A stretch of DNA of 64,000 nucleotides, taken from positions 310,001-374,000 of the forward strand of contig NZ_JAFEWE010000004.1 of NCBI RefSeq assembly GCF_017355785.1. The letters run 5' to 3'. This stretch comes from Desertivirga arenae. Lineage in GTDB: Bacteria > Bacteroidota > Bacteroidia > Sphingobacteriales > Sphingobacteriaceae. Numbering within the stretch: the first letter of the stretch is position 1; each line of letters starts with the position of its first letter. Shown one piece after another: positions 21,995-24,928 of this stretch. Position numbers and translations under genes: made by a program. The notes below the pieces were generated by a model. The model saw only the letters and a program-made list of their open reading frames with translations. It was not told where the DNA came from and searched no databases.

Positions 21995-22639
21995 TTATCC
22001 GTCTTTTTGCCCGAATGAAAGATCTCCTGCATCTCCCAGCCCAGGTACAATATATGCTTTCGTGGTCATTTCATCATCAATTGCCCCCAGCCAGAGTTTT
22101 GCATGAGGCAGGTTAGCGCGTACGTGAGCTACTCCCTCAGTGCTTGCAATGACAGAAACAATATGAAGTTGTCTAATTTCATACTGCTGTAATAGCTCCT
22201 TACAACTTAAAACAATACTCTGTCCTGTAGCAAGCATAGGGTCTGATATTATTACAACTTTGTGGTTTAAGTCGGGACTTGAAACATACTCTTTCACGAT
22301 AGTAAAGCCGCCGCCTTTGGTGTCCTGTCGAAAGGCTGCAATAAAAGCAGAATCGGCTTTGTCAAAAAAATTAAGTAGTCCCTGATGTAAAGGTAGTCCT
22401 GCCCTTAGAATAGTAGCAAGAACAGGTTGTTCCTGTATAATAGGAACTACAGCTGTACCTAAAGGTGTTTCAAATTCAGTTTCAATGTAAATAAGAGTTT
22501 TACTTATCTCGTAAGCGAAGATCTCGCCTATGCGCTCCATATTTCTTCTAAACCGCATGCTGTCTACCTGAATGTTGGCATCGCGTAACTCGGCTATAAA
22601 ATTATTTGCTACGGAAGAGTTGTTACTTAGTACAAACAT
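21995..22639 (-). CDS. upp: Uracil phosphoribosyltransferase
   Basis: Pyrimidine salvage: converts uracil and PRPP to UMP. The 214-residue enzyme shows the family parts VVPIIQEQPVLATILRAGLPLHQGLL near residue 60 and the PRPP-binding VVIISDPMLATGQSIVLS near residue 125 (Q replaces the more usual G in ATGGS). The C-terminal uracil-binding segment is YIVPGLGDAGDLSFGQ. The 12-base element shared with porV and the amidohydrolase gene lies 82-93 bases upstream of the ATG. Confidence 0.95.
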   Translation of the reverse strand: MFVLSNNSSVANNFIAELRDANIQVDSMRFRRNMERIGEIFAYEISKTLIYIETEFETPLGTAVVPIIQEQPVLATILRAGLPLHQGLLNFFDKADSAFIAAFRQDTKGGGFTIVKEYVSSPDLNHKVVIISDPMLATGQSIVLSCKELLQQYEIRQLHIVSVIASTEGVAHVRANLPHAKLWLGAIDDEMTTKAYIVPGLGDAGDLSFGQKDG

Positions 22640-22720
22640 GATATTTAAAATTAAGCATTCTGTGTTGAAGGAACAGATATCTTTTCTAAAAGTGAGATCA
22701 TGGGATGAATTATTTTACTA

Positions 22721-22732
22721 AACAACAATTAT
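22721..22732 (-). repeat. 12-base element ATAATTGTTGTT, copy 2
   Basis: Exact reverse-strand copy of the element seen before the amidohydrolase and porV genes, in sense orientation upstream of upp. Confidence 0.4.
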
Positions 22733-22755
22733 TTTTTTTAAGAAACTAATTATCA

Positions 22756-22839
22756 ATGGCTAACGTTCATACCTCGAAAGCCAGGCTTTCATGATTGTTA
22801 AATAAGGTTTATCGGGGGGCCACGAGGTGGTCCCTTTTT
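22756..22839 (+). ncRNA. Candidate short RNA or leader ending in an intrinsic terminator
   Basis: Between divergent upp and uvrB, the forward strand carries three elements: a 12-codon open frame (22756-22794), a perfect 7-bp hairpin GAAAGCC-A-GGCTTTC (22776-22790), and a GC-rich terminator hairpin (22816-22834) followed by T5. The terminator lies upstream of the likely uvrB promoter, so it would end a short transcript starting within this 240-base gap rather than regulate uvrB by attenuation. No annotated gene needs it. This is inference from structure only. Confidence 0.4.
22816..22839 (+). terminator. Intrinsic terminator upstream of the uvrB promoter
   Basis: An 8-bp stem (GGGGCCAC with GTGGTCCC, one G-T pair), loop GAG, then TTTTT. 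The reverse strand lacks a T tract after the stem, so it acts on forward transcripts. Confidence 0.7.
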
Positions 22840-22867
22840 AATTACCTTCCAAATTTCTTATAATGCT

Positions 22868-22875
22868 TATCTTTG
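22868..22875 (+). promoter_or_regulatory. -7 box TATCTTTG of uvrB
   Basis: Perfect TAnnTTTG match, 7 bases before the uvrB ATG; predicts a very short 5' untranslated region. Confidence 0.5.
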
Positions 22876-22882
22876 ATATTGC

Positions 22883-24928
22883 ATGGATTTTAAACTTATA
22901 TCTGATTATTCGCCCACCGGAGATCAGCCAGAAGCTATAAGGCAGTTGGTTGAGGGAGTTAGGAGTGAAGAGCATTATCAAACGCTTTTAGGAGTAACGG
23001 GGTCAGGTAAAACATTTACCGTTGCTAATGTTATTCAACAAACTCAAAAGCCTACTTTGATTCTTAGTCATAATAAAACACTAGCAGCGCAGCTATATGG
23101 AGAGTTCAAACAGTTTTTTCCAGATAACTCTGTTAACTATTTTGTTTCTTATTATGACTACTACCAGCCTGAGGCATATATATCTACTACAAACACTTAT
23201 ATCGAAAAGGATCTCCAGATTAATGAGGAGATTGAAAAACTGCGACTGAGAACAACGTCCTCATTAATGTCGGGAAGAAGGGATATAATTGTTGTATCGT
23301 CCATATCCTGCATTTATGGTATGGGAAACCCGGAGGACTTCTCCAATTCAGTTTTCAAAATCGCCGTTGGAACAAGGATCAGTAGAAATTCATTCTTACA
23401 CCGCCTTGTTGAGATCCTTTATTCCCGTACTTCAGCTGATTTTAGAAGAGGGACATTCCGGGTAAAGGGAGATACTGTAGATATCTACCCTCCTTACATG
23501 GACTTTGCGTACAGAGTTTGTTTTTTTGGAGACGATATCGAGGAAATGATGACTATCGACCCCTCTACTGGTAAGACCCTCGAAAAAATGTCTCACATGG
23601 CTATTTACCCAGCCAATCTTTTTGTTACCCCCAAAGATCGTTTTAATCAATCCATTTGGGCGATACAGGAAGAATTGGAAGTAAGGAAACAACAATTTGT
23701 GCAAGAGCAGCGCTTTCTGGAAGCAAAAAGACTGGAAGAAAGAGTTAATTACGACCTTGAAATGATCCGTGAGTTGGGTTATTGCAGCGGGATTGAAAAT
23801 TACTCACGTTTTTTTGATGGTAGACAACCCGGTATGCGTCCATTTTGCCTACTGGATTATTTTCCGGATGATTACCTGATGGTTATAGATGAAAGTCACG
23901 TTACTGTTCCTCAGATACGGGCAATGTACGGTGGAGATAGGTCCCGGAAAATGTCGTTGGTAGATTACGGATTCAGATTACCAGCGGCCTTAGATAACAG
24001 GCCTCTGAACTTTGAGGAATTTGAGCGACTGGCACCGCAGACTATTTATGTAAGTGCAACTCCCGGCGATTATGAATTACAGCAAACAGGAGGGGTGGTT
24101 GTAGAACAGGTGATTCGACCTACTGGATTATTAGATCCTCCGATAGATGTGAGGCCTATAATTAATCAGGTTGATGACTTACTGGAGGAAGTTGAACAAA
24201 CGGTTAAGCAAGGCGACCGGATTTTGGTTACAACGCTTACTAAGCGAATGGCTGAAGAGCTGACCAAGTACATGGACAGACTTGGTATTCGTGTAAGGTA
24301 CATTCACTCAGAAGTAAAAACTCTCGAAAGAGTTGAGATATTGAGGGGCTTGAGATTGGGCGAATTTGATGTGCTGGTTGGAATAAATTTGTTAAGAGAG
24401 GGACTGGATTTGCCGGAAGTTTCCTTGGTTGCAATTTTAGATGCGGATAAAGAAGGCTTTTTACGATCAGAACGTTCTTTGATACAGACTATCGGACGTG
24501 CTGCGCGGAATGATAGGGGACGAGTTATTATGTACGCTGATTCAATTACTGAGAGCATGCGTATCACTATTGAGGAAACAAATCGCCGGCGAGAGAAACA
24601 GATGAAATATAACGAGGAACACGGAATTGTACCTAGAACGGTAGGTAAATCCCGTGAAGCGATTATTGAACAAACTTCTGTGGTTGATTTTAAAGGTGGG
24701 GTGCAGAAAGCTTATGTTGATAGCGCTGATACGTTGGAGTCTATTGCAGCTGATCCAATAGTCCAATACATGAGTAAGCCTGAGCTTCAAAAGGCGATCG
24801 ATAAAACGAAGAAAGACATGATGGCTGCAGCAAAAGATATGGATTTCCTTCTAGCCGCAAAACTTAGGGACGAAATGTTTGCCCTGGAAAAGATGATGGA
24901 GGATAAATTTGCAAAAAAAGCACCTTGA
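22883..24928 (+). CDS. uvrB: Excinuclease ABC subunit B
   Basis: DNA-damage-binding helicase-like subunit of nucleotide excision repair, working with UvrA and UvrC. The 681-residue length is normal. Visible are Walker A GVTGSGKT (37-44), the beta-hairpin region VNYFVSYYDYYQPEAYI (about 90-105) that inserts into DNA, MVIDESHV as Walker B, QTIGRAARN as helicase motif VI, and the C-terminal UVR motif (about 640-675, LQKAIDKTKKDMM to FALEKMM) that contacts UvrC. The gene has its own promoter and is followed by ywbE after a 46-base gap. Confidence 0.97.
   Translation: MDFKLISDYSPTGDQPEAIRQLVEGVRSEEHYQTLLGVTGSGKTFTVANVIQQTQKPTLILSHNKTLAAQLYGEFKQFFPDNSVNYFVSYYDYYQPEAYISTTNTYIEKDLQINEEIEKLRLRTTSSLMSGRRDIIVVSSISCIYGMGNPEDFSNSVFKIAVGTRISRNSFLHRLVEILYSRTSADFRRGTFRVKGDTVDIYPPYMDFAYRVCFFGDDIEEMMTIDPSTGKTLEKMSHMAIYPANLFVTPKDRFNQSIWAIQEELEVRKQQFVQEQRFLEAKRLEERVNYDLEMIRELGYCSGIENYSRFFDGRQPGMRPFCLLDYFPDDYLMVIDESHVTVPQIRAMYGGDRSRKMSLVDYGFRLPAALDNRPLNFEEFERLAPQTIYVSATPGDYELQQTGGVVVEQVIRPTGLLDPPIDVRPIINQVDDLLEEVEQTVKQGDRILVTTLTKRMAEELTKYMDRLGIRVRYIHSEVKTLERVEILRGLRLGEFDVLVGINLLREGLDLPEVSLVAILDADKEGFLRSERSLIQTIGRAARNDRGRVIMYADSITESMRITIEETNRRREKQMKYNEEHGIVPRTVGKSREAIIEQTSVVDFKGGVQKAYVDSADTLESIAADPIVQYMSKPELQKAIDKTKKDMMAAAKDMDFLLAAKLRDEMFALEKMMEDKFAKKAP

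Follow-up and report, generated by a model that had tools for sequence, protein, structure and literature searches.

A hairpin and terminator upstream of uvrB in Desertivirga arenae are most likely parts of a small RNA gene with an ECF-type promoter motif

Introduction

The divergently oriented genes upp and uvrB of Desertivirga arenae (Sphingobacteriaceae) are separated by a 243-base gap containing a hairpin and, further on, a terminator that faces uvrB and has no annotated gene to end. What is such a terminator for? An earlier note on this DNA suggested that it could end a short RNA, or stop transcription running into uvrB from far upstream. To our knowledge, few small RNAs of Bacteroidota have been described outside Bacteroides and Flavobacterium. 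We analysed the locus in a stretch of 64,000 nucleotides of the D. arenae genome (hereafter the window) and compared it with genomes of the same family and class. The hairpin and the terminator are most likely parts of one small RNA gene, located at about 22775-22839 on the forward strand (Table 1).

Results

Anatomy of the upp-uvrB gap

The divergent arrangement and the size of the gap were confirmed from the gene coordinates. The components previously described in it are also present: a forward 12-codon frame (ATG 22756 to TGA 22794), a hairpin, and a GC-rich terminator ending in a T5 run (22835-22839), with 6 G-C pairs out of 10, all upstream of the uvrB -7 box. The hairpin had been given as 7 bp; this is the length of the DNA inverted repeat GAAAGCC-A-GGCTTTC, whereas the folded form has 6 pairs and a 3-base loop. 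The 12-codon frame shares bases with the predicted promoter of the small RNA and does not belong to its gene. That promoter and the conserved linker between the two hairpins are components that had been missed. A DNA search found the small RNA as a single copy in the 6.19 Mb assembly.

Table 1. Features of the predicted small RNA gene and its neighbours in the window. The 5′ end of the RNA (22775) is inferred from the promoter, +/- 3.
Feature	Position	Strand	Remarks
Predicted small RNA	22775..22839	+	~65 nt; R1 and R2 covariance matches, fold z -2.41
ECF-type promoter motif of the small RNA	22743..22767	+	AAACTAAT 22743-22750, CGTT 22764-22767
5′ hairpin	22776..22790	+	GAAAGC-CAG-GCTTTC, 6 pairs, 3-base loop
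Conserved linker AUAAGGUUUAU	22802..22812	+	most members have AUAAGGUUUGA; candidate site for pairing or protein binding
Predicted intrinsic terminator	22814..22839	+	10-bp stem, GAG loop, T5; stem-loop 22814-22836
uvrB's own -7 box TATCTTTG	22868..22875	+	after the terminator
uvrB, conserved neighbour of the small RNA	22883..24928	+	gene coordinates and comparison across genomes
upp, divergent neighbour	21995..22639	-	not adjoining the small RNA in all members

The predicted RNA folds into two hairpins separated by an open linker, and only 3 of 200 shuffled sequences folded as well; a longer stretch including the AT-rich flank was not outstanding (z -1.27, 23 of 200 shuffles as good). Three terminator-like sites occur in the surrounding 1.6 kb, against 0.9 +/- 1.0 in shuffled sequences, so that the presence of a terminator is by itself weak evidence. 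It is conservation, seen in the comparisons described below, that lifts the hairpin and the terminator above chance.

Distribution in the family

In a DNA similarity search, 12 of 399 genomes of the family matched: the window itself, one real relative belonging to another genus (G003), and ten with matches just 24-44 bases long. At the corresponding position G003 has this linker and terminator behind another 5′ hairpin. The element is absent upstream of uvrB from the remaining two genomes of the genus to which the window belongs, whose uvrB genes are 90-91% identical. The exact linker pattern was too strict as a search tool (2 of 399 genomes). Among 85 regions upstream of uvrB (80 named loci and five G genomes; 50 were read, and the full set was searched for the linker with a G-rich sequence after it), seven carriers were identified: the window, G003, G027, L053, L056, L070 and L077, of which L053 comes from Pedobacter cryophilus. 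Further hits of the linker scan in L042 and L059 show a different layout.

A covariance model constructed from the seven carriers, window included (R1), produced 48 matches in 44 of the 399 genomes at E<=0.01. Twenty-one were accepted as the RNA, all of them just upstream of uvrB and on the same strand. The other 27 (L136, L137, L139-L145 and L393-L410), none of which is located at uvrB, were set aside as other terminators; 18 of these (L393-L410) were scored for AAAC-N18-GT, and none has it. R1 scores alone do not separate the RNA from other terminators, because a rejected second match in G075 (E 1.6e-5) is better than that of the accepted member L138 (8.1e-5). Promoter and place, rather than score, distinguish true members. 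One of the rejected matches, L137 (G130), displays near the middle of the locus, on the reverse strand, AAACCTTATTA...TAATAAGGTTTGA followed by a terminator, with the complement of the linker just upstream.

We also used a model comprising the promoter and both helices, again with the window's sequence included (R2). At E<=0.001 it matched 24 of the 399 genomes, once each, and 22 of these matches lie at uvrB: the 21 members found with R1 plus L173, in genomes of different species. The match in the window (22743-22839) takes in its own copy of the promoter. Among 83 uvrB loci R2 gave five matches, all already known, and in a sample of 315 genomes of the class it matched two, the window and G022, both from the same family; with strict filters, none was obtained outside the window's family in this sample. 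The distribution is patchy by genus, with 9 of 18 genomes in g18, 2 of 2 in g2, 2 of 2 in g11 and 1 of 3 in the window's own genus. In the latter, G002 has no R2 match and retains AAAC-N17-CGTT and AAATAAGGGATAC, which looks like a decayed remnant of the element. Two loci of genus g16, L174 and L175 (both on the reverse strand, about 1501-1614), are nearly identical to each other and combine AAAC-N17-TGT, a hairpin, the linker AUACGGUUUAGG and a terminator, between genes other than uvrB. They are doubtful, possible distant relatives.

Conserved structure and covariation

The members share the promoter-like AAAC[C/T]A...CGT, a 5′ hairpin whose sequence changes, a near-invariant AUAAGGUUU(GA) and the terminator. 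In an alignment of 21 members running from the promoter to the T run and built without structure (A4), the linker ATAA.GTTT is invariant; the 22nd member, L173, has ATAGGGTTT. In single minimum-energy folds of 21 members, a hairpin precedes the linker in every one, and all 11 linker bases are unpaired in 15 of the 21 folds. The linker core AAGGTTT is fully open in 19 of them, so that this invariant stretch has the conserved and unpaired character expected of the seed of a base-pairing small RNA.

In A4, 92.3% of the cells pair, and changes on both sides are found at 10 of 15 pairs, including 7 of the 9 pairs counted in the terminator. The covariation score was 0.414, compared with 0.266 +/- 0.021 in shuffled alignments (0/500) and a maximum of 0.173 when slid, for pairs that were chosen on A4 itself, which favours them. 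For the number of further pair types, 44 of 500 shuffles did as well as A4. In 9 of 19 sequences the 5′ hairpin does not form pair 46-59, hence the alignment of this hairpin is imperfect, and the terminator provides the stronger covariation evidence. The covariance search that had been proposed as a check thus finds both stems conserved, with compensatory changes. They keep their position and pairing while their sequences change, and a promoter-like motif stands just upstream, which supports the short-RNA reading; the predicted length of about 65 bases falls inside the foreseen range of 60-180.

Promoter motif

When the search is anchored freely on the AAAC part, 20 of the 21 members have AAAC[C/T]A and GT at a constant spacing; in the exception, L119, the anchor had settled on a different AAAC. 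With the spacing included in the criterion, all 21 members have it. AAAC-N18-GT occurs in 3.5% of 52-base segments upstream of uvrB at 78 RNA-less loci, a figure to be set against 21/21 bearing in mind that the members were searched over a wider range (39 start positions, versus 29 in the RNA-less set). Thirteen of the 21 members have C at the start of the CGT box. AAC and CGT at such a spacing form the ECF-sigma kind of promoter, and as a sequence motif the element has the AAC-type -35, the CGT -10 and the fixed spacing before the predicted 5′ end. In Flavobacterium psychrophilum, the CGT-box motif SM6 is described as assigned to ECF factors, induced by low nutrients and present before T9SS genes and the small RNA Rfp11 (PMC9723704). 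A search of eight genomes with a strict promoter pattern gave 7 sites, 4 of them the small RNA, whereas the reversed control pattern gave 18; no regulon was seen in these genomes. The alternative of AAACCAAA as a divergent promoter (its reverse being a -33 TTTG), weighed by eye, is not preferred because the CGT spacing also holds where the divergent gene is a different one.

Relationship to uvrB

The primary sigma box TAnnTTTG (PMC7366714) begins 11-16 nt before the uvrB ATG in 19 of the 22 members, behind the terminator. Since this box occupies positions -12 to -5 (PMC9723704), the uvrB leader would be a few bases long or missing, and the uvrB mRNA is probably almost leaderless. In loci without the RNA, TAnnTTTG is found 11-17 nt before the uvrB ATG in 24 of 41 among L036-L080 and in 4 of 35 among L081-L115. 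A palindrome, TGACATAnnnTTGTCA or near it, occurs 74-172 bases before uvrB in 13 of 45 loci among L036-L080 and in 1 of 35 among L081-L115 (L037-L039, L041, L042, L045-L050, L072, L075 and L103); all of these loci are without the small RNA, and the palindrome resembles the operator of some regulator.

Could the element be a cis leader of uvrB? In that case uvrB would have the ECF-type promoter as an additional one, and the terminator would act as a conditional attenuator, stress raising UvrB. All 22 clear members are upstream of uvrB on the same strand, although their upstream neighbour varies, and 14 of the 21 gaps measured between the T run and uvrB span 25-83 nt. This linkage speaks for some tie. 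However, the gap reaches 132-305 nt in six others and 1295 nt in L119 (G013), where a 381-aa gene on the opposite strand interrupts the contiguity with uvrB. The RNA is intact there despite the intervening gene, and is therefore not merely a uvrB leader. Furthermore, uvrB has its own TAnnTTTG after the terminator in 19/22 members, and most uvrB genes compared are without the element altogether. We therefore regard a cis leader as unlikely. The intervening gene of L119 (1578-2723, reverse strand) is Fic-family-like, as named by eye.

Another alternative, in which the sole role of the terminator is to keep upstream transcription out of the nearly leaderless uvrB promoter and the RNA itself has no function, appears very improbable. 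The terminator is strong and the uvrB promoter box is directly behind it, yet the element persists 1.3 kb away in L119, and shielding leaves the conserved promoter motif, the 5′ hairpin and the invariant linker unexplained. A block of transcription into uvrB, the second function that had been suggested, may be a side effect. Although a frame exists, a 12-codon leader-peptide gene (22756-22794) with attenuation is hardly credible, as the ATG of this frame lies within the promoter and ahead of the predicted 5′ end, and this part of A4 varies in length and sequence with no shared frame visible by eye.

Search for targets

TCAAACCTTAT was searched in 21 genomes with the RNA (123 matches) and in 21 without it (109 matches, all analysed). 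From the former set, 15 matches, recognisable from their position as the small RNA, were excluded; 108 were analysed, of which 2 more proved to be the RNA. A gene start lies 0-20 nt downstream of the site in 8 of 106 cases in genomes with the RNA versus 2 of 109 in those without (Fisher p 0.057, for a distance range chosen post hoc); starts on the opposite strand, taken as a control, gave 3 versus 2. Two of the eight near-start sites are orthologues from sister species, and no near-start target gene recurs across genera in the 21 RNA-carrying genomes searched. Given the post hoc range, the orthologous pair and the lack of recurrence across genera, this signal is a hint at most, and backs pairing in trans weakly. 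One orthologous pair from different genera (L203 and L266, 67% identical) shares the site, inside the reading frame.

Discussion

Genome comparison establishes a conserved element that unites a promoter-like motif, a predicted fold and a link to uvrB. We consider it probable that this element is a non-coding RNA gene with its own ECF-type promoter, induced by stress and acting in trans through its linker, independently of uvrB. Forward transcription from the ECF-sigma-type promoter would begin near 22775, stop in the T run and yield an RNA composed of the 5′ hairpin, the mostly single-stranded AUAAGGUUU(GA) and the terminator hairpin. The promoter motif suggests that an alternative sigma factor turns on the small RNA under stress. 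The linker AUAAGGUUUGA may pair with mRNAs in trans, which is our best guess for its role; uvrB would be transcribed separately, from the promoter box that follows the terminator. Against this reading, two of the three genomes of the window's genus are without the RNA, which is carried by just 24/399 genomes of the family. More tentatively, the element could define a new, ECF-driven RNA family of Sphingobacteriaceae that relays envelope or nutrient stress, AUAAGGUUUGA covering the start regions of many SD-less mRNAs, its place beside a nearly leaderless uvrB being maintained by selection.

Rfam 15 gave no match in the window at the gathering score. A lenient search of 22600-22950 produced a single match to a snoRNA family, on the other strand and below gathering (E 0.24), and none at the element; there was likewise no Rfam match at the element in seven member loci. 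No published report of this RNA was found in a literature search. With every hallmark of a small RNA gene that has a promoter of its own, the conserved element is new to Rfam and belongs to a known kind. MicA and RybB, the Sigma-E-dependent small RNAs of enterobacteria, are short, ECF-driven and terminator-ended, with a short seed near the 5′ end, and use Hfq. The RNA predicted here from sequence resembles them in the first three respects and in its short candidate seed; in contrast to theirs, its conserved stretch is located between two hairpins.

The closest precedent in print appears to be Rfp11 of F. psychrophilum, compared here by description only. As described, Rfp11 is also a small RNA of Bacteroidota with a strong predicted fold and conservation in other species, and it is listed among promoters with the ECF-type CGT -10 box, SM6 (PMC9723704). 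R2, for its part, matched nothing beyond the window's family in the 315-genome class sample, searched with strict filters.

Since a promoter type, a covarying fold and a candidate seed are available for the small RNA, along with 22 genomes from different species, it is directly testable. It raises the questions of which ECF sigma factor drives it, what its pairing partners are and why it resides beside uvrB.

Flavo-1 RNA (Rfam RF01705) is likewise a small RNA family known in Bacteroidota; it differs in giving no match to the element described here. One Flavo-1 match, unrelated to the small RNA, was recorded in L053 (5625-5727, reverse strand), downstream of uvrB and on the other strand, with 53.5 bits for a gathering score of 42.
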